Made by a program: the position numbers and the translations under genes
Shown here: positions 3,101-63,868 of the stretch, in pieces
How the letters are laid out: each line of letters starts with the position of its first letter
Position numbering within the stretch: the stretch's first letter is position 1
DNA from: Membranipora membranacea
Lineage: Eukaryota; Bryozoa; Gymnolaemata; Cheilostomatida; Membraniporidae
NCBI GenBank assembly: GCA_914767715.1
Contig: OU612066.1
Span: forward strand, 26,758,283 to 26,822,282
Length of the DNA stretch: 64,000 nt
Direction: 5' to 3'
The notes under the pieces: model-generated
Database searches by the model: none
Told to the model about the DNA's origin: nothing
Seen by the model: only the letters and a program-made list of their open reading frames with translations

Positions 3101-4993
3101 GTAACCAGCTAATTAAGATACAGAACTCACCATACACATGGCCTGATAGTGCTGATGATCTGCCAGGATTCAGGAAATTTGTCACTACATTCATGTTCAG
3201 GATGGCTGGGGTATGTCCATAGATATAACATAAGACTAGCCTCAGGTTTACAGCTCTCAGATGCATAGTGTTCAGTACTAGGTTTCGTGTGCTTGAAATT
3301 ATTAGAGTGATTGTGAGGGAATCAGGTTTTTGATATCATTCTAGAGTTCTCAGTCTAATATAGAAAACTGCTATAAGGTTTATTATCAGCAAGTGCCCAA
3401 GTTTCACCTAATTTTGGAAGGTAATAAAAAGGTTCTATTTTGTATAATATACTATCATTAAAATAGTACCTATTTGGTACCTTCACATCTCAACTTTAAG
3501 TGAAAAAGAGTTGAAACTGGGCCATACTTTGTTAATGAACCTTATAGCAGCTTTCTAAATTAGACTGAGACCTCCAGAATGCTAACAAAAACCTGATTCC
3601 TTCACAATCACGTTAAAGTTTAAGTTGGGATTTTATTAAATCCAAACAGCTCTTAGTGCCGTACTCAGCTATATAAAAGACTCACTGATATGAAAATGAC
3701 TACAGAAGTGAATATACAGTATTATCCTTTGATTCTCAAACATTGACATGAAAGTTTTTTCCTGTTGTACTTATAGGATTTTGCAACCCGATCACTGAAA
3801 ATAGCTGAAGAGACACCAGGAGCTAACCTAGAGGTAGGTTTGGTTAAGTACTACCTGCTTAGCTCCTCTGCTGGAATGCTACCAGCGAGAAATGTATGCA
3901 CAATCTGATATTATCAATACCATGAAGAGGCTGAAAAGATTAATATTTGGCAGTGTCAATGTCCATCTCAAAAGTTGGTTTACAATACTGTCTCCCTTTA
4001 AATTGTGCAAGAGGACAACTTAACAACGTATTGAAATTTTCTAGGCGCAGTTGCGAATATTCTGACATATTGTCCAAATATTCTGACTCAATTTTGACAT
4101 ACGACAGTGGAACTCTTTCTTCTTTATTATAGTCTGAGACAGGGGAGGACAATGATCTATTAGCTCAACTCGAGATGAAGAGGACATGGGAAAGTGTCAA
4201 CAATCCTTACCTATTCTTTAATGAAGACGGAGCTACCATCACCCCACTAGGATTCTCTATCAAGATTGAGTCCTGTATGTAATATGTACAAGACTGTCTG
4301 ATGCTGAACTCTGTTGAGGTCTTCAAAATTAGGTCCTGCGCTTGAACTCCATGAAAAGTCATAGGAGATGGTTGAATTATAGTGAAAAAAGTTATGGAGA
4401 AGTATCACTAAAACGAAGCTAATCTGGTGGAATTTGAAAAAATCTTTTAACCAGCTGTTGCGCTGAATCATTCAACCTGACTCCCCTACGTATTGTTAAG
4501 TATTGTCACCCAGTGTATGTATCTCAAAGACTAGGCAAGTACTTATCTGTGTTATTTTGTTTGTAGTGGCTAAGCCATGTGACCTGGTGGATTGTAATAC
4601 TGGCGAAGTTCTAATGCCAAAAGCCATCAGCAGAGAACTAAAGAGAGCGCTGGATCAGACTGAAATCAAACTCTCTGAGAATTTTGATAAGCTTGGACGG
4701 TGAGTTTATTCTATCAAGGTCCGTGTGCTATGAGTTTTGTAGAGATGAGATAATTCTTTACTGAAAGACTGATGATGACCTGTAATTTATGACACCTGAT
4801 TATTTTGTAGACAAGCACAGCTACAGAAGTTGCGCAGTATAGTAGTGAGGGATATACAGTTGTATACCTCATCATCTCGAGGTGGATATAAGACTAAAGT
4901 ACAAATGTTCGCTCAGGGAGATGATCCGGATCCTAACTATGTACTCACAATGGATAACGCTAAGAAACTACTAGCTATACACCAAAGACTCAG
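139..4993 (+). other. RNF213-like gene: N-terminal part of the AAA+ block (exons 1-11 of the window)
   Basis: About 523 residues before the first complete Walker A. A P-loop-like RAGVGKSL motif sits in exon 676-854; it lacks the leading Gly of a full Walker A and fits the degenerate AAA units known in this family. Other family-like stretches are LDIAHEVDQGVD (exon 1314-1507), LPTIPCITPEDAL (exon 2189-2288) and CGLTRPSWSELRHYVYFL (exon 3042-3210). The first in-window codon follows a TTTTTTGTACAG acceptor ending at 138, so the protein starts further left. The acceptor at 1312-1313 has a poor pyrimidine tract and was chosen because it is the only one that keeps frame and family similarity. Confidence 0.85.
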
Positions 4994-22900: not shown

Positions 22901-25900
22901 CATGAGTATCTACATCACGCTCTCAGTGATACAAAACAACCTCTCTATATCCAGGTAAATAAAACATTCACAGCAGCAGTGCATTCCGGAAATGGTGAGA
23001 ACAACTGGTTTTTTTTCTGATTTTCAATCCTGCCGATGATGACCCAACTTGAAAATAAACAGCAATGATACCCCGCCTAGTGCTGCCTACTTACCTACCT
23101 AGCTTACAAACAATGAAAATTAAAAATAAATAACACACTGAGAAATGTTATCTACTATCCAACAGGTAACAACTTTTGCTGAGCTGATGACAGAACACGA
23201 TAAACACAAACTTGAGGACATGATGGGACAGACAGGTGGACAGAGAGTTCAGATTCAGAACCTTTATCTCAAAGAGTTCCTTAAAGAGGCTCAGTTCACT
23301 GAGAAAATCAGGTAGATAATGGACTCAATATAACAATGGTGGAAGTGATATGATGATGATAATATTGATTTCAATGTTGTGTCAGATTCAGTACTCTGAG
23401 CCATATTCTGTTAAATTTCCAGGAGTTGTTATGATGAGCAGACAGATGTCACACGTATAATACTGTTACAATGTGAGCTGGCTCATGAGAATACTGAACT
23501 GTTAGACTCAGTCAGATATATAATAGAGCACCAGAGTGATGAAGCTAAAACAAACGCTCATACAGTACTACTACTCAACTTACCCAGAGGTCACAAATTC
23601 ACTGGATATCAAGGTTAGTGGTATACTTCATCTTCATAACGTTGTGTCATGATAAGTCATGTGACTTGGGAAGATCCAGCAAAGCAAGGCAACAAATCAA
23701 ATGTGGATGGAGATTTTTTATCTGGATATATCTCATCAAGTTATCTTCATCCATCCCTAAAACTCCACCGTGAATAATGTCAACCATTGATTGATATAAT
23801 GTGAAAGTTTGAAGATGGTGGGACAAGTTGCCGTGCTTTTTTTCAGTGGAACACCAGATGTAGTAAATTTATTTCACAGGTTAATAACCTAACACAATGC
23901 CCTACAGACGCATCTAACTGCCACTATCACGAATCCAAATGGACATGTATTCATGCACCGAAGTATTGATATTGTTATTTGTAGGTGGTAAGTGGCGCTG
24001 TATGCATATAGACGATCCTCGTACACCAGAGATCCGCCTGCCTTCACTCAGCTCATGTATGAAATTGAAACCACATGAAATCATAAATAAGCTCATATCC
24101 CGATTGGACGGCGCTGCTGGTGGACCTGAAGCTGCTGCGGCAGCACCTATGGAGACTGGAGATGACAATGGCAGTGAATTTGATGGACTCAAGCAGTTCA
24201 TAATCAAATGTGTGCCAACTGCAGTTTCAATTATCACAACTGATCAACACTATGATAGAGTGGATCTTCTAAAGAAACTTCTTACAGAAAATAAAGGTTT
24301 GTATTCATTAAGGCAGTCAAATGCAATCATCTTAGGTCTTCTCTTTCAACAAGAGACCATCATTACCAGTAACTTCTCTGGTTGCTCTTACCTGGGTGCA
24401 TTAATAAAATAAATTTTAATCGTTCAAATTTGAGTTTCAAATCATTTTTGCATCCCATATCATGGTGTTGATAAAAGTGAATGCTTACAATGTTTAGTGA
24501 AAAGGACTAACAGTGGAGATTATTAAAATGAGACATGAGCTGCAGGAAGAAGGCTTTGGCACAGTTTTTTTATTTATTATTGGATCTAAAGTGCAGAGAG
24601 CGTCAAGAGAGATCAAAGAGAGCAGATACCACTGCAATTTCACTGTTGATTGCTTATTTTTATAAAATTGTAGAATTCCTGAAGTTGTTCCTTGCTCATG
24701 TGAGAGATCTGCTTGAGAAGCAGTATGAGTTTGCCTTAGGATCGTGGGTTAAAACTGATGCAGCTAAAGCCAGTAACATGAAGCAGTCAGAAACACTCAG
24801 GTAATTATGGAACACAAAGACAGCCCATGACCGGATTTTGTTTGTTACATCATTTCCTTACACATGGACTTTTCGTCTCAACTGACCATATCCAATATTA
24901 TCAGGTACACACTGTATGATGTCTCTGGTGCAACTCAAATTTGATATTCTAGCAAAAATCTTTAAATCATGCCAGTGAAAATTTGCCTCTACCAATGTAT
25001 CCTCTAGTTGACCTAAAGGTGTGATGCACAGAGAAATGAAATGTTCCTCCCAGCTACTGAGTGTCATATCGAAACTTTTGTAAAATTTGTACTACAGACA
25101 TGCCCTAGAGGACTCACTGGAGAGAGCCTTTGTACCCGGCCTGGCAGCTGTCATATCCTTTATTGATGTACGAGGTAACATACAGATGATCAAATCTCCT
25201 GGAGTATTAAATAGACTCTGGTTACAGCTGTTTAGTGAATGTGATAAACTTGGCCTTACATACAGTAAGCTCACTGCTGGACAACAAGGCGCAGTAAGTG
25301 AACCTCTAACATTATTCAAGACGAACCACGATGAGTGACAATTATATAAACAATATAAATGTAAATTTGTAAATCACTTTTTATTAGCTGCTCTCTAGCA
25401 ATCTTTACAGGAATATAACATAGAGACATATTCATATTCAACTAAGCGCACTCCTGTACAAGGTAGAAGTGGGCAAGCTAGGCTATTGCCCGGAGAGCTC
25501 CCCTCCTTCAGCAGCATGTGTAGTGACTGGGATTTGAACCAGCAACCCTCAGATAAACCACCATGCCATACTGCCATTGGTGTAACTTCAGTCTGCCAAC
25601 AGATGGAATACATATTGACAGAAATCTCACAGCTTCAAACAATGTGGTTCCTCAGTCGTAAATGCCCATAAATGGCTGTTGGAAATGTTGAAATGTTCAA
25701 AACGTTGGCTGATAGTATTTGAAAATGATACAGACTTGTAACTAAGTCACCATTGTAGTAGCCTGTATTACTGTTGATTGTTGATTGTGTTGATCGGTTG
25801 TTTTGACATTAAAGTATCATTCATGTATTGTAGAAGCTACCAAACAGATACAGGGTTCAGGAGTTTGGCACTGGAAGGCAGATGTTTGAGACACAGTTCC

Positions 25901-28900
25901 CATTTTCATGGATTGTCAAACAGACTATAGATAAATTTATAGCGGCCAATGACCCTCAACAGGAGCTCAACATAGGTAATTTGCCAAATAATGTGTGTTG
26001 ATAGAGCATAGACTTTCAGCCCTCAATTGGTTTGTATCTTCTTAAGAGGTATTTGTTTATATTATCGCCACAAGGGACCCATAAGATGAGAGTTTATTGA
26101 TGCACGGGAAAGGATTTTTCTGACACATATCCTACCTGATAGTGGCTGTCACTGGCTATGTTCCTAGTTGGTACTTATTTGAGAACAACTCTGTCTTCAA
26201 GCACCTTTGGTTTAATATGACGATTGATTTCCCCCGGCTAGTATGGTTATATTTGGCTGTGATATATTCCTATTTTGTTATTGCAGACAATCTGGTAGAA
26301 CAGTTTAAATCATCCCCTATCGGTATGGTTATATATCATCCCGATTACAACAGACTAAAACCTCAGATGTTAGACCCTTACCTCGTAGACTTTATCTATA
26401 TGTCTCATCCCTGCTCCAACAAGATAGAACATCAGGTATAAACTAGAAATTCTTCTGATCTGAAAAGTATGCATGATACACTCCACTTAATTCAGACCAC
26501 CGCTTAATAAATTTTTTAATAAGAAATTGACTGAGTGGAGACAAATCAACTTCATATTATGTAGCAGCTGCTGATCTCTGCTTTTCACGTGTTCATTACT
26601 CCCCTTCTCAATGACGCATCTCAATTTACTTGCGAATTTGTGATAGACTGTAAACATCCCAAGGTATTGTAAGAAAACCAACTTCTTTGTGGACAAAACA
26701 CAAAAAGTTTTCGTTTGTCCATTCAAATATCAGTGCCATTGTTTATCATCTACTCTTGCTCATAGATGGTTGGTATGAACATAATGATATACATACAAAA
26801 TGAGATGCACATCAGAGACCCATCCATGGTACACATACACATAGCCTATGAGAAGCAGAGAGAAATGATGCAAAGGCTCTCTGCAGCTTATAATCTAACC
26901 TCTGAAGCTCCTGGTGAAGGAATCGCTGAGAGGATCAGGAAACAGGTTGAGAAATCTGAAGAGGTCAGTCAGAATGTTATCCTTCCTTTATGTTTGAGAT
27001 GAATATTAACAGTTTTACTGCAAGTTAATTCGCTTTCATTTACTTCCTTTGTTTTCATTGCTGGTGACCCCTTATTGTGGTAGGTGTTTGGTGCTGCTTC
27101 TGCAACTGTTTTTTATCTAGCCATTGTGTTAACTCTGATTGGTTGGGTGGATTGGATTAAATCAATCAGAAATTGCCTCTAGCTGCAATTTTCTTCCCTT
27201 CGGTTACAAGAATCATAATTTTAGGACCCTATATATTATGTCTACAGCTTTATTCATTGGCATATTACAGAGATCAGATGTGGTAGTGTTAGACATCTTA
27301 TTGACTCTAGTAAAGGAGATAAAGATTCCTGATGTTATGAAGGATTCTGCAAGATGGGTCAATCTCGTAGAGAGATGTAAAACTGTGTATGATATGATCA
27401 TAAATCTTCTTGATACGGATTTTGACTCTGGTATCATTGGGAACTGTCGGTGAGTAATGCACGTGCTTGCTGCGTTATTGTGGTCACAGCACTGTTCTAG
27501 GCAGACAAGTTTGACTCTTCAAATTGAAGAATATACACATGAATTCATCTCTAGCACAGTCAGATATGCATTTAGGTCATGTCACTATTAATTTAAGATG
27601 GGCTGTGCCAGCTAGTTGAGCGCCTGAATCAAATTTTGTGGTTTGATGCCATGTCACTTAACTGTCAAACCCTTATGACTAAAGTCACTAGTAGAATGCA
27701 AAATTACTAACAGTGCATCTTTCATAGTGTGTTTCTTCTAATCTCTGTGCGATATCATTTTCCCAGTAATATGTGGGCACAGCTAGAAGTGAAGAAGCTG
27801 TATGTGGAACATGTGATCATACCAGTAAACCAGGAGAGACAAACTAAACAGAACTTCAACCTCAAATCTCTTATAACAGTAAGTACAATGAAAGTCTTAT
27901 GCTTTAATAACATGACAGGGTTGAACCAGACAAATTTAAATAAACCAACTTCTATGGATAGAGCCGCAAGTAGTGGCGGGTTCTGCATGTCCTATAAGTC
28001 AGCTTGTATAGAAAGTTCAACCAGATATTCATTACTGACATCATACCTGGGTAAATAAGAAGTTGCATTCCCTAGAGCAGATGATTCCTTCTCCCTTCGA
28101 TAAATCTCACCAAAAACAGCCTCAACTACAGCAAGTCTGCCGTGCTGTATAATTTGTTGCACTTTTTTAAATGAAATCTTGGAAAACAAGCCTTATTCTA
28201 CATGTTTGCAATTTTTCTATAGGAGGTGACAGAGACAGATTTCAGCACACATGAAGCATTTGAACAGATTGTCAAGTTTCTACGTAAGACAGTGTCTGAT
28301 GAGCTGAGGGCTCTATATCCGTAAGTTTTTTTTTCTCACAATTCAAGGCTTATTTTTAGGCCAATTGGTGTAGAGAGAAAGCACTATTCCATTGTCAGCA
28401 TTTAGAGAATTCTTAATACCGAACCTACTTTGGAATGCTATAAACAAGACCAACTTCATTTCGATCATCTGTTCAGGAAGGTCATTACCCAAACCTTCTA
28501 TAGACAGTTTTCTGAGCTCTGATTTAGGCCTCAATTCCGAGTTGTCCTCTCTCCAGTTTGGTACTTTTAACCCACGCCGCATAGGAAAAACGTGCTGAAA
28601 AGAGGGTTATCTTGTAAACCGCTTATAAGACGATAAAAATTATTTTTGTTTCAGAATCTACAACATTGAAAACTCATATAGACATAGTTTGGGAAATAAT
28701 TTTTGTATTTGGATAGTCAATTATAGCATTTTCTGCCTGTTTTGGGGACAATTTGGCAGAATTTTTCACGAGTTTCGTCACTAAAATTAAGATTTATCAA
28801 CATTCAAGCCTCCAATGATTTGGAAACCCTGTCTCACAGGGTTTTCAATGGTGCAGACTCTGAATCTAAAATCATTTTTATCCTAACATAAGCGGTTTTC

Positions 28901-31900
28901 AAGATAACCCTCTTTCAGCAGGTTTTTCCTATGCGGCGAGGGTTAAAAGTACCAAACTGGAGAGAGGACAACTCAGAATTGAGGCAAAAATAAGAGCTCA
29001 AAAAACTGTCTATTAATTTACATTCTTTGATAATCTGTTAGTTTCTATTGATTTAGTTTTGTGAATGTGTTTGTAGGAAATGTCCAAAGAAGTGCTTTTA
29101 TTGTAATGAGGTGATCGACTCCCCAGTCAGATTGAAGTGTAATCACATCATGTGTTACAACTGCGTGCAGGAGGTAAAGTTATGTGCACAAGAGAACTGC
29201 GGTAAAGAGATCAACGAGGAATCTATAATAGAACTCGCATCTGACAATATCGAGTAAGCTTTCATCATATCCCTATCAACCATACCAATCTTGGTGTACG
29301 TCTGAATAGTCTAGTAATAAATACACAGCCCAGAGAACTAGAGCCTTTGTAAGCCACCCTTGAGTGAAGTCATTTAGAGCCAATTTAAGTCAGTTTACAT
29401 GTGACTAGAACACATTTAGATGAATATGGAAATATACTCCAGCTCAATGAAATTTGTGATTGACTCAGCTGAAAGCAAAACAGCCATGATCTCAGTTGAC
29501 CTAGCAAGATCTATCTTGATTAGTATGTTAGGCACTTTGATGAACTGATCTGGGTTAAAGAAAAAAGAAATTAGGATTAGTTTAGAGTATTTGGTAATTT
29601 CCCAGTACAATTCACAAATCAATATTAGATTGCCATTACTCTATGTTTTAGGAAACAAAAACTAGATTCATTTAAGAGTTTCAGAGCTCGTATGAATGCC
29701 TTCTTCATGCACTTCATCTCGGAGGTAGTATTTACTGCAGAGTCACGACCAGCTGATGAGATAATGCACTGGTTACTCCAGTGTATAACCTCAGATAAAA
29801 CTACAAGACAGCTCAGTCTGTTCAACTCACAAGAAGTTGTCGATCCCAGCCCTGTTCTCAGGTATGTTTTTTGTATTAATCTAGTCATCTGTTATGTATA
29901 CTTCATCCAATGGTCATAGAAAGGACAGACACTCGTATGGCTTGTTAGATAATAAGTTGTTCATTTCCCCTTAGTTGGATATGCTCAAATGTATGCGCTG
30001 TACTAAGGGTTTCAAAATATAAAACAATGAGATAAAACTTAAACGATTGCTGCCACAGCTGGGCTTTGCCAAGCAGAGCCACCAGTAAAGATTTTAAAAA
30101 GAGAGTTGTGGCATCAAAACATCTAGCCAGTAGATTTGCGTGGAGTTATATGAGCTCTCAAAACGTAGGGAGTATCTTTTTCCCTTAGGCCACACCAAAT
30201 TGATGTCTTGATCTAGATTTACCTCCCTCCTCTAAAATATTATCTGGATCATAGAAATAAACTAAAATTACCTCCAGCCTCCAGCTGATCATTCTCTAAA
30301 TTATTGTAAAAATAACACAAAATGTGTGATAAAATGAATTTCCCTCCAGCATCCTCTCCATAATTGCCAAAAATAAAACAATAAAATGGAATTCCCTCCA
30401 GCCTCCTCTAGTATTTTGGCATAAAATGAAAAATAATATACCTCCTCCCTCATCCAAAATTCCTTCTTGCTCGTCATCTAGATCAAGACATTAATTTGGT
30501 GTGGCCTTAAACTGTCGACCACTTTGTAATGTGTACATCTGTTTCACAGATTATGAAATGTCTCATTGTTACGGATTTTTACAGGTCATTCCTACTGAAG
30601 CTGTTACTAAGATGTGAACAGAGTGAGACTGTCATTGAAAGTCTCAATGATATGCTTGCCTCATGGAGAGACCAACCTAAACTACAGGTTCAAACCATGG
30701 TACTCTTCATGAACTGTCACAAGGTATGTTAGCAATAAGACATGCTAGCTTCGTTGCACCTGAGCTGTCCCATCCTGGTAACAATGTGTGTGACTAGAAA
30801 ACAGTGTCAATAGAAGGATCTTGTCTCATGGAAGTGCATCGTAGTTGTTTGCTGGTCAGTAGATCGTTCATCGCTGTCATAATCATCATCGACAAGCGGA
30901 AAGACCATCTATCATCCTTCAAATATTATCTGGGTTTTCACTAAGTTTCAAGGTAATTGATTGTATCGTTTCAGGACTTACATCCACCATCGCCGACCGC
31001 TGGTCAGCTGCAGAATGTGATATCAGATCCAAACACATTACAGCTCATTACTGAAGAAGTTACTGAACTACCTGTTATGCTTCTCACCCAGTTAGCTGAT
31101 GTACAGGTAATTATCACATCACAATGATTCAGGAAGTTTTGAATAGTTACTTTGTTATGAAAGTTTCATACTGAAAACTAAAAAGTTCCATAGACTTATT
31201 GTTCACTGTCTCCAAATTGGATGGAGCTTTTGCATTCAACTAACTCCATCCTGATTGGAGTTCTCAGCCGTTGAGCTTGGAGTGAATATTTTCCACTCAT
31301 TCATTTGAGACCCCACAAATCTGTTAGTGATTATCTCCACATCTTTGACTTACAATCTCTATCGAACTCACTGATTATTGCTTTTCTCTAGGCTGTTGTT
31401 ATTTATCCACAGAAGTCATCCATACAATGAAGGTTACGAGTTTTACTTACCTTGTGCTATTTCAATTACTTATGTTTAACAGGTCTTCATCAACAACATC
31501 ACTGAAATAGTACTCGACAGTAAGAAGACTTCCCAAAGGCTGGAACAGGAATTTCAAAATTTCTTACTTGCGGCCAACCAATCTGGAAACTTTCAAATCA
31601 AGTATGTATTGTGATATAAATTTGAATGTGGATTATCTCAATTCCTTGCTCTATCAGTCATTAAACCAAGCCACATCCTTCTCAAAACATTCTCTAAGAA
31701 GTATTCTCATCATGCATTGAGTGTTTTCAGAAATTGAACTCAAGTAAGTCCCATCATACTTGCCAAGTAATCTAAATACAAAATAGGGAGATTCCATTTT
31801 ACGGCGATACTGCACCACAACGTGGTGCTTCGAGGGTGCGAAGCACCCGAATCACCCACCTGGGGGTTTGGGGGCGGTGTGAGCCCCCCAACGGGGTACG

Positions 31901-34900
31901 GGGCGGAGCCCTGTCTGCAGAAGCTCTGAGAGCGTTTCCAGCCACTAGGAAGGGCTAAAAAGGTATATTTGACCCCAAATAATTTCATGTTTGTACTAGT
32001 ACTAAAATATCAAACTGAGGTGAAATACACTTTAAACAATTACAATCAATCCATGGGCCCCTGGGACTCTTACATACATGCCTTTACATTGTCAATGTCC
32101 AGTATCAAACACCCCATTGGCAAAGTAGAGGCATGTATGTCCCAGGGGCCCTTGCCTGTCAAGACAGGATACAAGTGCCCATGCATCATCAAGATCTGAA
32201 AATGTGCTCAGTCACAGACAATGAGAATCCAGATAAGGTACTATATTCCTGTTTGACTAACATTAAATAAGTTTCAAAGTCTTTGGTCCGAGCTTTGTTA
32301 AATTGTAGTGGACATACCTTTGGAATTGTTAGGTTTCTATTTCCCTTCACTTAAATTTAACTAGTGTAGACAGTATAAAAAATTAATACTAAAAAATGTG
32401 TGATCTGAAAGGAAATGAAGACTAAATGTATGCACTTGACTAGCTACTTTCTATTGTGACCAATGACAGTCAGTGTTGTGGGTTATGAGAGGATGCTATT
32501 GGTCATTTACAATAATAGGCTGAATCTTAACAAAACAGGTAAATTTGTTCATACTGACTCTCGTGATCTGACTGGGCATGTAGATCACTGATAAACTAGG
32601 CTATCATTACCACAAAGCAGGTGTCGTAAGGCTAAGTATGCATCATGCGTGACTTGATTATGTGCATGTGCAAGAACAATGAGTTTAGTTTGGGTTCTGA
32701 TTGCAACTTTGGAAAGGGGAAATGGGACATCCCCTGCGTAAACTGTCAATCAAAATCAGCTAATCATGACAAGAGAGGATAACTATTAATAAAAAATCCG
32801 CACGCTTTGGGGAGTATGTCGCCAGAGCAGGTAGCCAATCAGATGGCTTCGGAATTCCGAGACTCAATTTTGCAGAGATCAGCTCATGCCCAGAGCTGAG
32901 CATGCGCAGAATGAAATTTGTTAGGATTGTTTAATTTGATAATTCCTTTCAATTTTGTGTGCAAAGACCTTAACAGTAACTAGTCAACAACAACATGTGC
33001 TTGGATAACTATCAAAAAATTGCGATTGGACTTTTTTCTCTAAAATCTGGAGGAAATAGTGAGATTTACAAAAAGTGGGAGGTGAGTGTAAAAATCTGGA
33101 GGGTCACGCCTAAATCGGGAGAATTGGCAAGTATGAGTCCAATTCCGCTCATTCTGAAATGATCAATGGCCAATTGCCAGCAAGATTTTTAAAAGATGGT
33201 TCAAGTCCATGAAGCTATGAGTTCCTTTGTAAAATTTGTTTTAGTTTCCTTGTGGTGAGACAGTTGCTCTCTGAAGGAGGTGAGAGTTACGTTAATGATC
33301 TTATCAACTCTCCCTATAACTATCTAATACCAATGAACATTAAGAGAGCTCTTGAGGACTTCACTGTAGCAGATACACTGTCCATATTTGGAGGTGATTC
33401 ATATAAGAAGGTCAAACAATCATTAGAGAATAGCTTCGTACACTTCACAAAGAGGGACAGGTTCTCGGAAGCCCTGGAAGAGATCAAGGGACAGGTATGT
33501 CCACTAGAATACTGATTGAAGAGAATTGAACACAATGGACTGCATGTCAGGGGTGTCTAAGTCTATATTGTAGACAGATGTTTCAACATCACAGATATAT
33601 TTTTTTTTAAATAACCAATCAAAAGAGAGTCAACTAACACACTGTCATTTGGTGAATTGCATGGCTTTAGTTTGGTCTTACTCATTCTATATTATTATTT
33701 AGGCTGTTGCTTTTAAATTTTGCTGCATCAGGGTAGTGCTCAAAAAAAAATTTCTTGGCTGTACAGTGCAGTATTGAATTATTATAATGGCAGCACTGCT
33801 TGCCTTCTCTATTGCTTATTTCGGTTTCTGAAAACCTCTCATTCCTACTGATGCTTTACAAATATTACAGACTAAAGATCATATACTACTGTGGGGTGTC
33901 TTCACTAGAATTACTCGTACTATGGTGTCTAAATCTCCAGTGCCAAAAGAAATCAGAGATGCAATCAAGAGCAACCTCAGGCGGAACATGAACCCCAAGA
34001 ATATTGTAGGTTTTTATTTTTGAATATATCTTTGTAACATTTGTGAGATATTTTACACCAGATGTTGTCTGTTTTTCAGCAATCACCATCAGGACTGCTT
34101 ATGAATGAAAGGAGATTTATGAGTAAAGTTTTGTTTATAAAAACCTTCCACCAATACTACTGATAAGTTATTGAAACGTTTTTGAACAATCACTGTCCGA
34201 AAAGAAACCCTCTGGCCATTACCATTGCTAACTCAGCAATTTTTTTATCAGGATATGCTCGAGTTTCTGTTGAGAGACACACTAAATGAGGAGATGGATT
34301 TAGTACAATCACGAGGGGTGAACCTGTCTATGCTAGTTCTTCACATGTACAAATGTCTGTCAGGGGATGAGACAAAAGGAGATCTGTATCCACTCGCTGA
34401 GATCATCAACGACCCTCAGAATTCTGCTGTAAGTTGTTATTTGACATAATTTATATGCCACTGATTATTTCTTCTGGAGAACATGCCAATATCAATCATG
34501 CGTTAGCTTCCACAACCAGCTGGTTGGCCTTATGACAATGTTAACTATTTTAGGTTGTCGGAAGTCTCACTAAATTCCTTTTTTTATCTTCCTTACACAT
34601 GGTTGTTACTCAATCTGCTGTTTCTGCTGAGTAGAATTTTATCATTCTCTCTAGACTCATCCGGCATAGACTGTTATCAAGTTTTAAGTTTCTATTCTTC
34701 TTTATTGCAGACTCATTTCTTCCCAACAATGCCTGACAATCAGTATGAGCTTATTGGTGCTAGTGGTATTAACGTAGGAAAATCATACAGTAAGTACAAT
34801 GCCTTTTACTGATATTATTTTCAATTTATAGGCTTGTGAACATCGGGTAACTGTAAATTGCTGAACAGGCTGAACAGACTGAACAGCTGAACAGAATTTC

Positions 34901-37900
34901 TCAGACTACTATTTGTTTGATTCTTAACATGATTGGCTAATTTTGCCAAAGCATGGACAATTCTTTATATTCTTCTCATTAAATTATTTATTTTAAGTTT
35001 GCATTCACCTTGGTTTCTTTCAATTTTATGCACAGCAAATTTTTTGGCATTACACGACTAGTGAATGGATGGAAAATAGCCCCCCCCCCCCCCTATAAAC
35101 AAAGCTTGTTAAGACTGGCTAGATGGAAGGTTGAGCTGGATAATGTTTCTGGTATCCAATTTCCAGAACACCATCAGATTTTGTCATAATTGGCACATTG
35201 ATTGCTTCATTTGCTTGCCCTAAATTGGTTATATTAGGTGCCAACAGGAACTTAGTGACTCATCAAATCATTGGTTAGGAGGAATGTGTCTGACAAGTGA
35301 TAGTCAGCCAGGGAAATGATAACAATAATAATAATTTTAGTCTGAGAAATTCTGTTCAGCTGTTCAGTCCGTTCAGCCTGTTCAGGGGTTGTATAGCTTT
35401 TTGTAAGAGTATATGTAAAGTGCACAGTCTTTTGAAACTGTAGAGATGTGAAGTGAATATTTATCTTTCAGTAGCTCTTGCAACAGGGGACAACTGTTAG
35501 CTAGATTTGATGACCTGTTTTATCATTATCAATTGAAATCGCCTATCCTAGTTGTCTGATTGTCATCCAAGTTTTCAATTCTGTTCAAGCGGGCCAACAT
35601 GGTGTTTATGTGATATATGTTACATAAAGTCGCAAAAGATGGACATCTATCATCATTAATTTCATTTAATTAATTTTTCAGAGTGTCCAAATGGTCATCC
35701 CTACTTCATCGGTGATGTAAGTGTCTACTATATAATGATAATCTTAAACTACTGCTGCCACACAGCGAAATGGGTGCTTACTGAATTCTGTATAGCTCCC
35801 AACTAATAAGGCTGCAATCTCAGTATCGTCACCAAATGAGCAAATAATTTCACAAACGGATAGACAAAATCAGCGTATGATATTAATTATCTACCAGTAT
35901 CATGTGATGTAGTTATTGTCTTACTAGTGGAAATTAATTACTGGCATCAGCTAGTGCTAAATTTCATGCTCTGGTTTGGAAGATAGGTTTGTGCAAATTA
36001 TTTGCCTATTAGGTGCAATTCTGAGATTAAAGTCTCATTTAGTTATCTTGGAGCTATACAGAATTCAATGAGCACAAATTTGCCTGAGTGGCAGCAGTAG
36101 TTTAAGGTCCAATGTCTTTAAAACCATAACAAGGCCCTCATTTGTGTAACCTTTCATGATGTTTTTTCTATGGGTGATGCTGATAGCATATGTTTATGGT
36201 TGTGTTGTCGCTGGCCCAAGATAATTGACAATGACTTTTTTGCAAGCTGATGCACTGAATCTCAATGACGGACACCATAACTTTGTTTGTTGTTAGTGTG
36301 GAAGGCCTGTACAGCGTACACAATGTCCTATTCCAAACTGTGGCCTATTTATCGGCAGCACAGGACAGTATGGCCAGTCAGCACAGGGGAATACTCAAGT
36401 AGCTACAGGTGACAGGTCAGTATCAAGCTGTCTTCTTTTTTGCTACATGCTTCATTGTTATGTTTACAGTGCGGTAGACCGTGGGTGGAGGATAACTGTC
36501 GCACATGCGGAGCCATTATTGGCGGTAAAGGTCATAAAGAGGCCACAGGAAACCAAGCAATCCAAGCCAATGATAGGTAAAATAATTTGATTGTATTATG
36601 AATGACTCCCTTACCTAATCAATCGTACCTTATGCTATCTAAACCGGGCCTCAAAAACTCAATCCTCATTTCAATCTCAATCAAGTTTTCTGAACATTTC
36701 ATCAGATTCAATGATGTTAGTTACTACCACTTACTACTTAGTTGACTGAGGCGCGTGGATCATTTTCATGAATACAACCAACCTAATTTATCCATTTTTG
36801 TTCAAATTCGGTACCTGCTATGAAACTCTGTCCTACTAGTTTCGAGCAAATTTAGCTTTTACTAATACTGATTACATGTATAATACAGAGCGTTATCAAG
36901 GTTTTCAGCTACGATTGACACAAAAATGGCAATCTTCAGCTATTCATTACTCATTCAAAACCTTTTTACCTGTAGTGCAATGAAGAGTAAGCCAGCACAC
37001 ATACTGGGCGCTCACTCCACAAGAGAAGGACCTCTACCTGAAAGAGAACTAAGCTCACTCTCGTGTGCAATACTGAGACTACTCACACACCTGGCCATGT
37101 ATACATCATTCCTTGTCAACAAGCGCGCAGTGAGTAAAACCACTAATGCTGTAATATTGTTTGACTAAGATCCCATAATGTTGTGTTGTCGGGAATCATA
37201 CATCTCTGAATAAAATAACTTGCTACACTTGAGGTTATGTTATCCTCTGGCGTTTGAGCCGCCGAAATGTTACTTAGACAAAAGAATCGGCTGTGGCTAC
37301 ACTCTTGGTATTTCACATCATAAATGAATCATTGCAAAATTACAATCAATTCTGCTTCCCTGAAGGTTCATTTGCATTGTTGACAGGTTCTGCAAATGAT
37401 ACAGCCGACCCAGCCAGGAGATAATGTGGTCGGATCGTTTATCGACAAACACATACAGATGGACTTGAAGCACATCGCTCAGTGCTGCAGTGAGAATGCT
37501 GATGATTGTCTTCTACTTATACATGATATCATCAACAACATGGCTAAAAGTGAGTAAATATAATACAACGCATACAGCTTTAAAGGTGGTCATAGATTGT
37601 CTTTTCATTGCATCCCATCTGTAAGGTTCTGTCATGAAGGTTTTATTAGGTGAGCTGTGTTTATATTTCGACATTATGGTGAAAAAAATCTATCCCTCAT
37701 TTGGGAATTCTTTTTTCTATATATCATCATATTTGCTAGCCTCAATAGGTCTATGAATTGTCTTTGACTTATCTTAATGGGTATCATTGATATTTCGTTT
37801 TGTAGGTGTAGGGAATCGTGGGGCTGACAAAATTCTAGACACCATCAACATCCGTCAACAATGGGAAAAGAACTTTGATCAGAAATACATCAGGCCTACC

Positions 37901-40900
37901 CTAGATCAAAAGGTAACTAACCTAAGTAATGCTATTCCATGAATGTCATTTGCAAAACCCTGAACAGTAATGAGAACATAGATAGTTGTAGTCCTCAGAC
38001 TCATGTTTTCTCAATAACCTTGTTCCTCTACAACTTCCACAACATCCGGAAGAATATAAGTTGACATAATATTTTGAAGAAACACAATGTAATGAATCTC
38101 ACCTAATTGTTTTATAGGCGGATAATATCGAGAGAATGAGTAAAGTCCTGAGAGTGGCTGATAAGGTTGATATTAAGAGTATACTTGATACTAAAGAGAA
38201 TCCGATAAACGCTGATAATATGATGTCATCACCTGGTCTGTGGGAGTACAGCAGACCGCTGACTCTACCTAGAGTACAGAACAGGCAGCAGGCCGAGGTA
38301 AATATACTGATAGTTTAGTGACTATATTGCGCTGTCTTCTCAGTCTCAGCTGGGTTCTAGGTTAACACAACTGATCCCTTATCAGAGACTTATGTCAGAG
38401 GTTTTGGAAACAAAGTCTTGTCAGCGTATCCCATTTTGGAAAACAAAGGTCAGGAAGCAATGTTATGTAGCTAAATTAACCCAATTTAGGCACCACTAAA
38501 ATTTCACAAGAGACCTGAATTTCAAATCAAGAGAATGGTGTCAAACCAAACTGTTCAATCTGTGATTGTCTTCAATCTGTCATGTGTTAACAGAGAGAAC
38601 CGTGTCTAAAGAGGGTTGCTGAGCAGTGTGACAAGTTAGTGACAGTACGATATCTACCAGATATAATACAGCTGAATAACCTACTCAATGACAGGTTCCA
38701 CAGTAAATACACTAGGGAGGAGGCTCAACACGTACCTATCTCTGAGTTCTGTAGAATGCATGGAACTGAGCTAACGAACATAAGAAAACTAGTGGACAGC
38801 TTCATACAAGCCTGGAACATGGCTACCACCTTCAGTATGTAAACCTAACAGAACAGATAATAACAGGGGTTCTCAGAACAAAATAAACGGATGGATTTAT
38901 AGTTATGTTGGAGTTTGATATGTTGATAGTTAGGCTGCTCTTATTCACAGAGCCTATTGAAGTCATGCACTTTCATGAGTAGCTAGAATAAAGAACAATG
39001 TCCAATAGTTGAGACGTAGTACAGCTGTGGTAGAACAGCAATGATGTGTGTACTACACCCTGAATTGCATCTTACAGGTCGGTAAGTAGTGAGTGTGACA
39101 GGCTTGGGGTAGAAAAGTTTGTCTTGGGAATATCCAGTTAGTGATTGACCAGAACTACTGATATTTGCATTGTAGCTAACCTGAAGTTAATGTCAGATCA
39201 GTCACCACTGTTTGATTTCCTGTATGACCAGCATGCCGCCGCTGATGCAGACCTCGGCAGGAAACCTTATCTACTAGCAGAGTGCCTCGTAACCATACAA
39301 AACTCTATGATACCAGAAGAAGATAGGTATGCGTCTTTCGTTCGAGAACAAATGCACTAGTCTGTGATGGAATTGAGGTTGAAGTGTATCCAGAAAGAGA
39401 AAAAGAGCGGCATTTCATTGTTCCAGTTTCAATTAATTTATTCGATGATCACCACTGTTGTCCATGATTTATGAGTTGAGAAAGGCTGTCAGTAGATTAA
39501 TTTTCATGTCTTTGATTCTTCTCCAGTGAGAGAGTTGCCCTATCGGCTGTGAGATCCGCTAACGTAATCAACCTCTCAGGAGAAGATGAGCTACTTAACC
39601 TGATAACTTCTCACTCTGAATATGAACTGAGTGGTGAGACAAGTAAAGACTATGACTGGCCTTCTATAGAGAGACAAGTCATACTCAGATATATCAACAA
39701 TAAGCCCAGGATTACATTCAATAGAGAAGAGATGGCTCACTATGTGTACCAAGAAGATTTCAACCTGCACAACCAGATTCAGGCTATAGAAGAGTCTCAG
39801 GTTTGTTTAGTTTATCCATTAAGGATGTCACGCTTGGTATTATTTTGAGGAATGCTACGTTATGTGCAATTGTGCATGCGTTTGGTCCTAAAATCTTGAA
39901 TTATTATTCAGGTAAACTAAATGGATTGGCTGCGCTAAGGTTATTAACAGCTTAGTACTTTGTCAATTTTATAGGAAAGATTGTCTGACAGGCAACAGAA
40001 AGCAATCACAAGCTCACTTGTGAATGCCCCTATAGCTACCCTGACAGACTATCTGAAGAGCTTGACTGTCACTATCAACTTTCTGTCAACTCTGCCACAC
40101 ATAGAGCGTGAAGTGTCACTGTATCAGTATATGAGGACCACCCTGGGGCACTCACCTACCTACCTGTCAGATGACATGACGCTCAAACATGTCCGAGATG
40201 TGTGGCTTGTCATCAAGTATACTCAAGTGGAGCAACTCATCAAACGTCAAGAGGTGGGTGGTCTTTACATTGTAAGGGGATACGGTGGGTGGTCTTCGTA
40301 TCTTTTTATTGTTGGCGGAAGAAGTGGGTGGTCTCCTCAAAGTAAGGAAATGAGGTTGGTGGTCTCATCGTCATTAAAAATAGCGATGGATGTCATCCTC
40401 ATGATAACTAGCTTTCCAAAAAAAAACTTCCTTGAAAGTTTAATGCCAATATGATTGTCTGCCAGAACATTAACAAATCAGTTTGAGCAATGCATTACTA
40501 AAGCAAATTATTGCTATCACATTGCTCAAAGTTATTGTCTCTCAATTAGACCATTTTGTTCCCAAATCCCTCATTCAGAATGTATATAGTGACATCGATG
40601 AGTGAGTGATGTTTGAACAAGACCGCTGGGTGAACAATCAGATAGCGATTTTGGCTGTTTTAATTTAAGACTCACTCATCTTACTTCTTGACTTGTAGGA
40701 GGCGTTTGATGACATAGTACCTGAGTGTCGGGAGCCCATTACCAAAGAACTCATCACTAGTCTCGACTCTGCAATTATGTTAAATAGCCCGAGTACCAAA
40801 CTTCTACTGCATGAGCTCTTCAAGTATATCATCCTGAGGCTTAACAAGGCAGCTATCAAGCAGGACCCCGAAGAAAAAGCCATCAGGTAACCAAATTGAT

Positions 40901-41675
40901 ACGTTCAATGGAATAAAATCAATATTTTGGAAGAATTTTTTTTTTTCTGGTTGAGACATTTTGTATGAATTGTCTTCCAAACCGAAATTGCTGCCTCTAG
41001 TATAGCGGAATTATCTTTCTTTTCGGTATGGGAGATAACTTCAATAACATGTAGTCAGTCTGTGACCTTGTTTGATTACTCAGTATAAGCTGATTTCCAT
41101 AAAGCCTTGAAAGCTATAAAATAATGGTCCTGGCCATAATTATTGACTAGATACTTGTCAGTGTCTTATTTACTGGCAACAAAAAACCATGTAGATCGTA
41201 AATGGGTGGCTTTAGGTCTCGGTAATCATGGAGTGATAGAGAGCATACCATGGGTATGTGTCTTTGTTGTTAGTTATTTCACTCAAGAGGCTCAATTGAT
41301 AAGGATAGAATTGTCAGCATTATAAGACAAAATGGAGGAGTAGAAATATTTCCTGATAGATACCACGTTGATGAACATATCCCTGGTCCATCAGTCAAGA
41401 CCACAAACAAAATCAGAACAATCGATATTATTATACTGTTTGTTACAAGACAAGACTGTGAAGTTTTTAATATAACTTCTTGGCGTTTGGTTTTCAGTTT
41501 GAGAGATGCTCTGAATGGTTTTATATACGAAAGAGCCAATGAACATGATGAAGACAGAGCTATGGAGATAACTATGGAGCTACCAAAACTACCAGAAGAG
41601 ATACAAGTACAGCATGCTGCCAAAACCTGGTCTCATATATGGCAGCGATGTAACTTCTGGTTACAAGATCAGTAA
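139..41675 (+). CDS. RNF213-like: RNF213-like giant AAA+ ATPase / E3 ubiquitin ligase, C-terminal ~3,392 residues (5' end outside window)
   Basis: Cytosolic ubiquitin ligase of the RNF213 (mysterin) family, which couples a dynein-like AAA+ motor to RING and RZ-finger ligase modules. Exons: 139-296, 676-854, 1314-1507, 1681-1734, 2189-2288, 2517-2718, 3042-3210, 3777-3833, 4133-4274, 4567-4699, 4811-4993, 5168-5294, 5727-5843, 6443-6600, 6932-7014, 7210-7382, 7570-7671, 16423-16641, 17151-17326, 17744-17975, 18152-18322, 18499-18671, 18901-19038, 19372-19740, 20188-20329, 20697-20890, 21436-21612, 21822-22031, 22196-22325, 22763-22954, 23166-23311, 23423-23613, 23985-24296, 24674-24800, 25098-25293, 25834-25975, 26287-26435, 26766-26963, 27271-27449, 27767-27878, 28223-28320, 29077-29253, 29652-29861, 30585-30723, 30975-31106, 31483-31601, 33245-33494, 33871-34005, 34252-34428, 34711-34789, 35682-35716, 36297-36415 or 36470-36576, 36976-37129, 37387-37549, 37806-37912, 38118-38297, 38594-38834, 39176-39326, 39527-39800, 39975-40253, 40699-40886, 41498-41675. 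Phases are compatible throughout and the stop is TAA. Exons 1314-1507 and 1681-1734 have the weakest borders. Confidence 0.95.
5168..7671 (+). other. First catalytic AAA+ unit of the RNF213-like protein (Walker A and B)
   Basis: Exon 5168-5294 carries a perfect Walker A, GETGCGKT, at about residues 533-540 of the in-window protein. Exon 6443-6600 carries the Walker B LLFLDEAN near residues 611-618, followed by TTEAIGLVKEIL and then IIAACNPYRR (sensor 1 region). Exon 7210-7382 has MRHLVYRVQPLPQS, also a family hallmark. The Walker B acidic pair (Asp-Glu) is intact, so nucleotide binding and hydrolysis are expected. The unit is cut by six introns, the last being the 8.75-kb intron that houses other genes. 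Confidence 0.93.
6126..6305. repeat. Tandem dimer of an ~88-bp intronic unit with a CRE-like palindrome
   Basis: Two head-to-tail units each start GCGGTT..AACCTCAG and share CATATTTGC, CCTCAGCTGA and CCTCAGAGGATT. The second holds a perfect TGACGTCA. An inverted GCTGAGGTT..AACC follows at about 6330. Lies in the intron between the Walker A and Walker B exons. Confidence 0.75.
7901..10360 (-). CDS. NHL-propeller single-pass receptor, copy 1 (603 aa, 3 exons)
   Basis: Exons on the minus strand: 10360-10299, 9966-8957, 8640-7901; phases close and the stop is TAA. The start ATG at 10360 opens a hydrophobic signal peptide (MQTMRVLSVSLVVWLSTL). The ectodomain (about 21-357) holds NHL/beta-propeller signatures: a Gly-rich NGALKEARFGSI turn followed by ILVVDSGNHCIRSIDL, then a second-blade YLTDKNAIRHI, with several N-x-S/T sites. 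A Ser/Thr-rich stalk (about 358-468) includes a Ser run encoded by an AGC repeat. One membrane helix lies at about 470-494, after it basic residues, then a 109-residue tail with PKPPS and tyrosine motifs DDTYYKVV, GHYYSRPV, HEYEEPQSP and NGYVLDP. A cell-surface receptor or adhesion protein is inferred; the ligand is unknown. It lies antisense inside an RNF213-like intron. Confidence 0.85.
10361..11056. other. Spacer between the two receptor genes
   Basis: Lies upstream of receptor copy 1 and downstream of copy 2, so it should contain the copy 1 promoter. The sequence is AT-rich with no open frame I would trust, no clear TATA box at a fixed place and no family-like coding. The short plus-strand open frame near 10565-10816 has no recognisable content. 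Confidence 0.5.
11057..11261. repeat. ~205-bp near-perfect palindrome over the 3' end of receptor copy 2
   Basis: The sequence starting CAGAAAGTTAAGACCTTAAC at 11057 returns as its reverse complement ending at 11261, with arms of about 98 bp that look identical and only a few central bases (around 11155-11163) unpaired. The right arm contains the last codons and the TAA stop of receptor copy 2, so any transcript of that gene that runs through would fold into a long duplex. No target-site duplication was seen, and the outer sequence differs on the two sides. It could be an inverted duplication or a foldback element that captured the gene end. Confidence 0.92.
11251..14063 (-). CDS. NHL-propeller single-pass receptor, copy 2 (about 611 aa, 4 exons in my model)
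   Basis: Tandem paralogue of the gene at 7901-10360. Exons: 14063-13978, 13373-12328, 12087-11845, 11711-11251; phases close exactly. The first exon encodes a signal peptide (MRALLVIGMKIVKRLNLITI...), and both copies join exon 1 to exon 2 at a split AGC codon. The propeller exon is clearly homologous (NGHTLGRITENNTIE, LVVDSGNQCIRSVDLA, VFLTDKNAVRRI). The stalk is Ser-rich; the helix is at VGIISITSLLLVTIVFITVIIW; the tail repeats DDTYYKPV, GHYYSKS, HQYEEPESP and NGYVVDP. Two oddities: the acceptor used by copy 1 has become CG here, so an acceptor further upstream (12088) is needed and adds about 20 residues; and 133 nt that are coding in copy 1 must be removed as an intron (11844-11712), otherwise the frame stops before the helix. 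A pseudogene is the alternative. Confidence 0.72.
13555..13645 (-). repeat. tRNA-derived SINE-like fragment
   Basis: Read on the minus strand, a pol III B box GGGTTCAAATCCC lies at about 13574-13586, preceded by a TGGCATCTCTTATACTGTGA stretch in the place of the D-arm and anticodon region. The A box is weak and no cloverleaf closes, so this is a SINE or tRNA relic, not a working tRNA gene. It sits in intron 1 of receptor copy 2. Confidence 0.45.
14380..15564 (-). mobile_element. 5'-truncated non-LTR retrotransposon (jockey/CR1-like), reverse transcriptase C-terminal part
   Basis: Minus-strand open frame from about 15564 to a stop at 14511. It encodes reverse-transcriptase blocks: LDFSKAFYKVNHPKLL (normally FSKAFDKVNH; the Asp is Tyr here), [21 protein letters not shown], then RLFADDTIIY with the catalytic FADD intact, followed by YLGVKVQEDLKW and a basic thumb region ending in RSWNQLDPQSRHLC. 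The first half of the polymerase and the endonuclease are missing. Beyond the stop, the tail ends in AAGT-type short repeats near 14380-14392, as at the 3' end of many LINEs. The fragment is dead by truncation. It lies in the RNF213-like host intron. Confidence 0.88.
15414..15727. repeat. Foldback at the 5' end of the LINE fragment (two ~150-bp inverted arms, ~11-nt spacer)
   Basis: Arm 15414-15564 is repeated as its reverse complement at 15576-15727, differing at only a handful of positions. The right arm encodes the same reverse-transcriptase block on the plus strand and keeps the FSKAFDKVNH aspartate that the left arm has lost. This resembles the 5' inversions left by LINE integration (twin priming or template snap-back), but with the block duplicated as well as flipped. 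Confidence 0.9.
15797..16172. repeat. Dispersed ~370-bp repeat, copy A
   Basis: Shares long blocks with 32563-32920: CTCTCGTGATC, then ACTGATAAACTAGGCTATCATTACCACAAAG, AACAATGAGTTT, CAGAGCAGG..CCAATCA..TGGCTTC and CTCAATTTTGCAGAGATCAGCT, all in the same order and orientation. No coding potential and no clear terminal repeats were seen. Both copies lie in introns of the RNF213-like gene. Confidence 0.85.
18749..18842. repeat. Small inverted-repeat element in an intron
   Basis: GGCCTGCCTTAGCCTTGACTCACGGCC is answered by GGGCCGCGTGACAAGGCTATGCCTGC about 40 bp on, an imperfect hairpin of about 90 bp with an A/T-rich centre. It is probably a short MITE. No target-site duplication could be assigned. 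Confidence 0.55.
19106..19170. repeat. (TTCCAG)n hexanucleotide microsatellite
   Basis: About ten tandem copies of CCAGTT/TTCCAG with one TTTCAG variant, in the intron between exons 18901-19038 and 19372-19740, about 70 nt after the donor. Every unit reads as a short pyrimidine stretch plus AG, so it mimics a splice acceptor many times over. Confidence 0.95.
20060..20165. repeat. ~17-bp tandem repeat (ACAATGGTCCCACAATT unit)
   Basis: Six or so degenerate copies of a 17-bp unit run up to about 25 nt before the acceptor of exon 20188-20329, so they occupy the branch-point region of that intron. It is a minisatellite; copy number may vary between individuals. Confidence 0.9.
21248..21345 (+). 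repeat. tRNA-derived SINE-like fragment
   Basis: On the plus strand an A-box-like AAGTTGATAAGAGCATTGG is followed about 35 nt later by a B box GGTTTGAATCC. The order and spacing are those of a tRNA, but the acceptor stem does not close, so a SINE head is more likely than a gene. It sits in the intron before exon 21436-21612. Confidence 0.5.
21822..22031 (+). other. Extra cysteine-rich (RING-like) exon inside the RNF213-like AAA region
   Basis: This 210-nt exon encodes about 70 residues with the pattern C-x3-C-x2-C, PC-x2-H-x4-CC and RRC-x4-C, which looks like a degenerate RING or other zinc finger. It lies between FVKPQMMFK and FENSRVETAFIGYSS. In vertebrate RNF213 as I know it, the matching segments are linked by a short spacer without such cysteines. 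The exon has the same splice phase at both ends and a length divisible by three, so it can be skipped without changing the frame. It is separate from the main RING at 29077. Confidence 0.8.
22196..28320 (+). other. RNF213-like gene: helical linker between AAA core and RING (exons 29-41 of the window)
   Basis: Thirteen exons encode about 725 residues, mostly helical and without catalytic motifs. Alignable landmarks include TAFIGYSSETTALTV, LLLQCATGEAVLRL, GGKWRCMHIDDPR, FVPGLAAVISFIDVRGN and QFPFSWIVKQTIDKF, which appear in this order in RNF213 proteins. Exon 23985-24296 contains a low-complexity Ala/Gly run (GAAGGPEAAAAAP) followed by acidic residues, a likely loop. Confidence 0.88.
25400..25610 (-). 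repeat. tRNA-derived SINE
   Basis: On the minus strand, an A-box-like TGGCATGGTGGTTTATC is followed by a good B box GGTTCAAATCCC (about 25531-25542), then a non-tRNA body with GGGGAGCTCTCCGGGCAATAGC toward 25475. The tRNA-like head plus unrelated tail is the usual SINE structure. It lies in the intron between exons 25098-25293 and 25834-25975. Confidence 0.65.
28498..29014. mobile_element. MITE with ~130-bp inverted ends (family T1, copy 1)
   Basis: The left end GACAGTTTTCTGAGCTCTGA is repeated inverted at the right end, with long arms that include GTTGTCCTCTCTCCAGTTTG and the CATAGGAAAAACGTGCTGAA block. Both ends are flanked by TA. The centre (about 28630-28880) is unrelated AT-rich filler with no coding. 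It fits a Tc1/mariner-type or similar TA-inserting non-autonomous element. It lies in the intron directly before the RING exon. Confidence 0.85.
29077..29253 (+). other. RING finger exon of the RNF213-like ligase
   Basis: A single exon encodes the whole finger: CFYC, then 11 residues to C-N-H, C-x2-C (CYNC) and C-x5-C (CAQENC), at about residues 2235-2294 of the in-window protein. The pattern is C3HC4-like. The final cysteine pair has a longer spacing than the usual C-x2-C, and the residues after it (GKEINEE) replace the common proline. This is the E2-docking type module of the family, although in RNF213 the RZ finger is thought to do much of the ligase work. Confidence 0.92.
30184..30509. 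mobile_element. MITE with ~33-bp inverted ends and internal tandem units
   Basis: TTAGGCCACACCAAATTGAT at the left is repeated inverted at the right as AATTTGGTGTGGCCTTAA, with a further match through TCTTGATCTAGA. The interior holds about five degenerate units each starting CCTCCAGCCTCC or similar, followed by A-rich DNA. TTA(A) occurs at both borders, which would suit a TTAA-inserting group (piggyBac- or Kolobok-like); the superfamily is not proven. Confidence 0.82.
32052..32152. mobile_element. ~100-bp foldback MITE (family T2, copy 1)
   Basis: An imperfect hairpin beginning CATGGGCCCCTGGGACT and ending CCCAGGGGCCC, with GTCAATGTCCAGTATC before the turn. A second copy with the same ends and centre lies at 53109-53237, which shows that this is a mobile family and not a chance palindrome. 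Confidence 0.85.
32563..32920. repeat. Dispersed ~360-bp repeat, copy B
   Basis: Second copy of the repeat at 15797-16172, in the same orientation and clearly diverged, with conserved blocks such as ACTAGGCTATCATTACCAC and CTCAATTTTGCAGAGATCAG. No open frame. Confidence 0.85.
34861..35385. mobile_element. MITE with 48-bp inverted ends built of CTGAACAG units
   Basis: The left end holds four spaced CTGAACAG motifs and then AATTTCTCAGACTA; the right end is its inverted copy with a single visible mismatch. The interior (about 430 bp) is non-coding and includes a 14-C tract at about 35081-35094. It lies in the intron before the RZ finger exons. No target-site duplication was assigned. Confidence 0.88.
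35682..35716 (+). other. RZ finger, first half (35-nt constant exon)
   Basis: A micro-exon encoding the start of the RZ-type zinc finger, KCPNGHPYFIGD; its Lys codon is split with the previous exon. It supplies the first Cys and His ligands, and the remaining two cysteines come from whichever of the next two exons is used. It ends at phase 0, as both alternative exons require. Confidence 0.92.
35744..36105. mobile_element. MITE with ~55-bp inverted ends, TTAA borders, between RZ exons
   Basis: TTAAACTACTGCTGCCAC at the left and GTGGCAGCAGTAGTTTAA at the right are inverted copies; the match goes on more loosely through GAATTCTGTATAGCTCC. TTAA at both outer ends suits a TTAA-inserting group. 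The element fills most of the intron between the constant RZ exon and alternative exon A. Confidence 0.87.
36297..36415 (+). other. RZ finger second half, alternative exon A
   Basis: Encodes CGRPVQRTQCPIPNCGLFIGS and a Gln-rich end. It starts at phase 0 and ends with two bases left over, exactly like exon B. The zinc-ligand cysteines are spaced C-x4-C instead of the usual C-x2-C, and the His that follows the IGG turn in exon B is absent. If used, the protein gains four residues compared with exon B. Confidence 0.88.
36470..36576 (+). other. RZ finger second half, alternative exon B (canonical type)
   Basis: Encodes CGRPWVEDNCRTCGAIIGG then KGHKEATG. The C-x2-C spacing, the IGG turn and the following His match the usual RZ finger, so this looks like the ancestral version. 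Only 54 nt separate it from exon A. Including both exons, or neither, shifts the frame into an early stop in the next exon (36976). Confidence 0.9.
36976..41675 (+). other. RNF213-like gene: C-terminal domain and natural stop (exons 53-62 of the window)
   Basis: Ten exons encode the C-terminal helical region: KPAHILGAHS right after the RZ finger, LLTHLAMYTS, then long helical exons to the final SLRDALNGFIYE..LPKLPEEIQ..WSHIW, which parallels the C-terminus of RNF213 proteins. The stop TAA is at 41673-41675. An AATAAA at 42167-42172 is a candidate polyadenylation signal about 490 nt downstream. Confidence 0.9.
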
Positions 41676-63710: not shown

Positions 63711-63868
63711 CTGAAGAGAATGATAATACCCAGTATATAGGATTTGCCAGCTAGCCTGATCATTAGGGATTGTACTCTATCGTATAACTGGAGTTATTTT
63801 CATTGACCATAATTGCCTTTCTACTATGATGATCAATGAACAGTATGAGACGACAAAAATCCCCTCTT

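Follow-up and report, generated by a model that had tools for sequence, protein, structure and literature searches.

An RNF213-like gene of the bryozoan Membranipora membranacea with a candidate pair of mutually exclusive exons across the RZ-finger active site

The closest described counterparts of the gene considered here are the vertebrate RNF213 ligases, for which the residues of the RZ finger have been assigned. According to the account of mouse RNF213 given in PMC12075652, the zinc ligands are C4451, H4455, C4471 and C4474, C4462 is the nucleophile that takes up ubiquitin, H4483 has been proposed as general base and its replacement by alanine (H4483A) reduced autoubiquitination, and the C-terminal domain serves for E2 docking. 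The human counterparts of the zinc ligands are C4505, H4509, C4525 and C4528, with C4516 as predicted nucleophile and H4537 as predicted base (PMC11549300). As to splicing, a human atlas of mutually exclusive exons treats a donor and a branch point lying <50 bp apart as a possible case of steric interference (PMC5740500). In Bugulina stolonifera, RNF213 is listed as up-regulated in autozooids compared with avicularia (PMC7534450), thus indicating that the RNF213 family is expressed in bryozoans, and for M. membranacea RNA-seq data are public (ERR6464929; PMC10290214).

The 64,000-nucleotide stretch of M. membranacea chromosome 2 analysed here, referred to as the window, holds most of an RNF213-like gene (Table 1). 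The gene was modelled by dynamic programming, using codon conservation against two paralogues, P8 and P9, together with splice signals, and its individual exon borders are predicted. The product of the model has 3,277 residues when exon A (see below) is included, the 5' end of the gene lying outside the window, and the 61 introns have a minimum length of 87 nt. Comparison with P8 over 3203 aligned codons (one set aside) gave a dN/dS of 0.07, and that with P9 over 1669 codons a dN/dS of 0.13. A 1172-residue piece of the model showed a collinear match to solved RNF213 chains over about 1000 aa (E ~1e-60), in which query residues 169-1169 correspond to residues 3642-4689 of the human chain, covering the RING and RZ region and part of the C-terminal region. 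The dynein-like AAA core profile AAA_5 scored 29.3 bits against a cut-off of 22 in the first 722 model residues, which were the part scanned; seven RING families matched with E 0.002-0.04, every one below cut-off, and the RZ finger profile PF20173 was above its cut-off of 27 with either of the exons described below. One model intron (7672-16590, 8.9 kb) is far longer than all the others and contains several internal repeats. A palindromic, MITE-like repeat of about 514 bp occurs at 28500-29013 and 63868-63995, with more copies in the window and in the region of the paralogues.

The RNF213-like family is strongly expanded in M. membranacea. Two near-identical gene copies lie at 26.59 and 27.01 Mb (98.3% over ~9.0 kb and 97.7% over ~8.3 kb), the paralogues P9 (~26.34 Mb) and P8 (~26.41 Mb) lie on the strand opposite to the window gene, and nine more RNF213-like loci were observed at C2:7.14-7.63 Mb (five), C2:36.40 and 36.47 Mb, C8:8.65 Mb and C7:16.01 Mb.

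Table 1. Predicted features of the RNF213-like gene around the RZ finger (window positions)
Feature	Position	Strand	Basis
RNF213-like gene, 62-exon model, 5' end beyond the window	139..41675	+	conservation in two paralogues and splice signals
Exon preceding the RZ finger	34711..34789	+	gene model; homologue in P9 fused in frame to the exon A tail
Common upstream RZ exon, 35 nt, with zinc ligands 1 and 2 (C-x3-H), phase-0 donor	35682..35716	+	gene model, profile match
MITE-like palindrome within the intron that precedes exon A, predicted single long hairpin	35743..36106	+	self-alignment, fold
Exon A, second half of RZ finger, first codon the putative catalytic Cys, C-x4-C, no His, donor CAG|GTCAGT	36297..36415	+	gene model, frame test, profile
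A-B intron, 54 nt, shorter than every model intron	36416..36469	+	gene model
Exon B, second half of RZ finger, first codon the putative catalytic Cys, C-x2-C, IGG, His, donor TAG|GTAAAA	36470..36576	+	gene model, frame test, profile
Common downstream exon, frame kept when A or B, but not both, precedes it	36976..37129	+	gene model, frame test

An earlier note on this DNA had described two adjacent exons, A and B, with matching phases, each encoding a second half of the RZ finger, and had claimed that the use of exactly one keeps the reading frame while both or neither lead to a stop. The gene model and the frame test bear out the coordinates, the phases and the frame logic. Exon A (119 nt) and exon B (107 nt) both enter in phase 0 and leave in phase 2, and their products agree at 15 of 36 aligned positions. 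When just one of the two is used, the spliced model reads through to the terminal stop; joint inclusion leads to a stop at model position 2672, joint skipping at 2599, and retention of the A-B intron at 2690. The two are thus adjoining homologous exons of similar length and same phases, whose joint use or joint skipping is non-productive, as in mutually exclusive exons; in the predicted gene structure, A and B have the tandemly duplicated anatomy of a frame-enforced mutually exclusive pair within the RZ finger.

The same note had seen in the 54-nt gap a hindrance to A-to-B splicing, and the intron lengths of the window gene (61 introns) and of both paralogues speak for a steric effect: with the homologue of the A-B gap left out, the shortest of 60 introns measured in P8 has 84 nt, and the shortest of 27 in P9 has 135 nt. 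Such an intron would probably fall within the donor-to-branch distance of <50 bp considered in the human atlas. As scored with an ad hoc matrix, the A donor is the stronger one (5.1 vs 0.7 for B) and the B acceptor is the stronger acceptor (2.3 vs 0.8 for A). The sequence of the A-B intron is identical to that of P8 at 52 of 54 positions, a value equalled by 138 of 1775 ungapped 54-nt intron windows, so its conservation was rejected as proof of regulation. Upstream of exon A, the region 35700-36320 gave a predicted fold with a z of -11.2 against 20 shuffles, and the intron there measures 580 nt in the window gene and 297 nt in its P8 homologue; a role of the hairpin in splicing is speculation.

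Both exons yield a recognisable RZ finger. Joined to the common upstream exon, form B scored 68.4 bits and form A 54.1 bits against PF20173. As controls, a direct fusion of the upstream and downstream pieces, lacking both A and B, gave 25.8 bits, and three hand-made scrambles of A in place gave 23.4, 29.9 and 25.1 bits, the one value over the cut-off being ascribed to the common piece plus chance. Taken as single exons, A scored 19.1 bits (E 0.001) and B 33.3 bits; when matched by sequence to RNF213 structures, using query peptides with two wrong residues, A gave a weak match (E 0.03) and B one of 1e-5. That exon A is a chance pseudo-exon was rejected, since A alone matches the RZ profile at E 0.001 and restores the frame.

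The residue content reported earlier for the two versions was also confirmed. The putative catalytic Cys is codon 1 of both exons, and the first two zinc ligands are encoded in the common upstream exon. Form B, with its C-x2-C, IGG and His, has the Cys-His dyad, and all its zinc-binding and catalytic positions line up with those of mouse RNF213. Form A keeps the Cys, its cysteine pair is spaced C-x4-C and His is absent from its 39 residues, so that neither the Cys-His dyad nor the C-x2-C spacing is found; the place aligned to the His of B is occupied by Gln in the ungapped alignment and by Gly in one gapped alignment. Zinc pairs spaced C-x4-C are known from other zinc domains, such as IBR. As both exons start at the Cys that would accept ubiquitin, and the His missing from A corresponds to the proposed general base, the A/B difference is predicted to affect catalytic competence first and substrate second.

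The distribution of exon A was followed by a whole-genome search with the PF20173 profile, in which 33 candidates were scored at E up to 10, giving 32 matches, 13 of them above cut-off. These 13 are the three window-type genes, P8 and the nine other loci. Exon A of the three window-type genes scored 18.5 bits, below the cut-off, and that of P8 was absent from the match list, so weak A-like exons can escape a genome profile search of this kind. At the nine other loci, tblastn and a pattern search between the flanking exons found no A-like exon, and the idea of a second RZ exon in RNF213-like copies outside the cluster was dropped. Each of these loci has a single second-half exon, with the His kept and an AG immediately before the putative catalytic Cys codon, the cysteine spacing being C-x2-C in eight and C-x-C in one (L037, C7:16.01 Mb). 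A-like exons were seen in the local cluster only, where three near-identical genes keep A and B. The nine loci share the intron position and showed no A-like exon, which suggests that the intron at the catalytic Cys is old in the RNF213 family and that exon A was gained in one cluster. Exon A predates the split of the cluster genes, a recognisable A being present in P8 and an A tail in P9.

In searches of other proteins, a form-B query, which favours form-B-like matches, retrieved 164 homologues; among the 120 listed that were scanned, 118 fit the RZ pattern and two did not, and the 118 listed homologues fitting the pattern had C-x2-C in all cases (118/118), with His in 117 and Tyr in one. A form-A query (residues 2562-2690) gave no match among 53 candidates, and a form-A query of 1,100 aa gave three among 1628 candidates (P0123, P0124 and P0125), P0123 and P0124 having a canonical RZ. 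No A-like RZ was found in the deposited Bugula neritina protein. Trees built from the short exons had poor support.

The restriction of exon A to one cluster agrees with the best-surviving alternative, which we consider unlikely, namely that A is a decaying duplicate of B, rarely or never spliced in and open by chance, youth or gene conversion. The fate of the exon in P8 points in the same direction. In P8 (L008, C2:26402500-26412000, reverse strand), a 2,011-bp transposon (reverse-complement ~3086-5096) has inserted at the exon A donor; its ends are imperfect inverted repeats of about 34 bp, and the target duplication measures 8 bp. The GT is changed to GC (CAG|GCATAT, followed by element sequence), the frame of A is intact, 2,073 nt now separate A from an intact B, and yet P8 is under constraint. 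Exon A of P8 may be spliced via this weak GC donor. The evidence from P9 (L009, C2:26334000-26343500, reverse strand), a gene likewise under constraint, is on the opposite side. Here the RZ finger was deleted in frame (reverse-complement 4936-5033), the exon before the finger is fused to the exon A tail, which has a further in-frame gap, and exon B has lost its acceptor AG and its three cysteines; from the A tail, by way of the A donor, the frame continues into the downstream exon, so that P9 appears to use both tail and donor. Decay also accounts poorly for the open frame, the acceptor, the good donor, the matching phases and the RZ cysteines, which are intact in three genes.

Substitutions in exon A bear on both sides of the same question. 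Its nucleotide conservation is not above that of introns, 108 of 119 positions being identical to P8, a level reached by 90 of 187 windows of 119 nt, and alignment scores with Bugula (72 for A, 109 for B) show A as the more diverged exon, as expected of a decaying copy. On the contrary, no indel separates A from its P8 homologue in 119 nt, where the rate in aligned noncoding sequence predicts 2.7 (P 0.07), and synonymous changes were in excess when P8 and P9 were pooled (10.5 of 21, expected fraction 0.23, P 0.003-0.01, for comparisons that share a branch). With P8 only, the excess had a P of 0.03-0.09; 5.5 synonymous and 5.5 nonsynonymous changes give a dN/dS of about 0.28, compared with 0.07-0.09 in other exons. 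The signs of purifying selection on exon A are thus no more than suggestive. The near-identical copies show zero differences from the window across the 280-nt A-B span, and in their C-terminal exons (817 codons compared in each) nearly all change is synonymous: 33 codons are altered in one copy and 22 in the other, three of them nonsynonymously in each case. The unchanged span lies in a patch with few changes and can be explained by gene conversion, and the identity of the copies was rejected as proof of selection, as change is patchy along them.

A second alternative, which we hold to be improbable, is that A and B would act mainly as a regulated poison switch, in which joint inclusion or joint skipping leads to decay or to a protein without the E2-docking domain and so tunes the level of RNF213, the A product being secondary. 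It would agree with the stops that the both, neither and retained-intron forms meet long before the C terminus of the model, and with the docking of the E2 by the C-terminal domain of mouse RNF213 (PMC12075652); a switch of this kind has, however, no need to keep an RZ-like sequence recognised in A alone at 19.1 bits, zinc cysteines and frame-restoring phases. That A is the main exon and B a minor one, or that each is fixed in different tissues, leaving the usual RZ finger without its general base, is very improbable, as the higher score of the A donor is set against the better acceptor of B, its greater conservation and canonical residues, and against the ad hoc nature of the matrices.

The reading we favour, and regard as moderately likely, is that A and B form a mutually exclusive pair, specific to this lineage, that would switch the RZ active site of an RNF213-like giant ligase. 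As to the interpretation put forward at first, the anatomy of an exclusive pair stands and the steric argument is strengthened; its generality is doubtful, since A was seen in a single cluster and is damaged in P8, and purifying selection on A is weakly supported. From the genomic sequence we infer that both junctions are used and that the two forms differ biochemically. Splicing would then pick which second half completes the common first half of the finger, and both forms would provide a zinc pair and the Cys onto which the E2 transfers ubiquitin, provided that A folds and binds zinc as proposed. Form B would add the His that deprotonates the substrate and work as a normal ligase. Form A could be charged with ubiquitin, and its discharge, by analogy with H4483A, is expected to be slower, or might be directed onto different acceptors; within RNF213 coats it could serve as a scaffold, a dominant modifier or a form of low activity. 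The 54-nt intron would keep the two exons exclusive sterically and, where this fails, frameshift and decay would do so, the products of both or neither being non-productive and without the domain that docks the E2 in mouse RNF213.

A wider version, which we put forward tentatively, is that cells of M. membranacea could alternate, through splicing, between two chemistries of an antimicrobial giant E3. Form B, with its Cys-His dyad, would ubiquitylate pathogen surfaces, the Cys-only form A would be charged and act slowly or on other acceptors, and their ratio would set the growth or the targets of the coat; the paralogues would then have moved to single states, mainly B in P8 and no finger in P9.

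If the favoured exclusive pairing is correct, the charging Cys and the general base of a transthiolating E3 would be uncoupled by splicing, not by mutation, and the gene would offer a natural test of what the RZ His contributes to lipid versus protein ubiquitylation, with sister genes as mainly-B and RZ-less versions. In the titles and abstract openings retrieved from the open-licence PMC literature, alternative RZ exons were not indicated. With vertebrate RNF213 (mouse 6tay and 7oik, human 8s24 and 9g08), the bryozoan gene shares about 1000 collinear residues that take in the RING and RZ region, a dynein-related AAA region upstream and the residues of form B; it differs in that the second half of its RZ finger comes in two alternatives, one of which, form A, has C-x4-C and no His. 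The nearest protein found, EB796_009578 of Bugula neritina (P0123), is 48% identical over 88% of the part searched and has an RZ like form B, with His, and differs in that its deposited model has one canonical RZ. The animal clusters of mutually exclusive exons, as presented in the human atlas (PMC5740500), are alike in their adjoining similar exons, length, phase, frameshift on joint use and short donor-to-branch distance. Here, unlike in those clusters, the exon border falls on the catalytic Cys, the exons differ in the second catalytic residue, and the arrangement is predicted from genomic sequence; exclusive exons placed across the catalytic dyad of a ligase would be a new form of a known exon arrangement.
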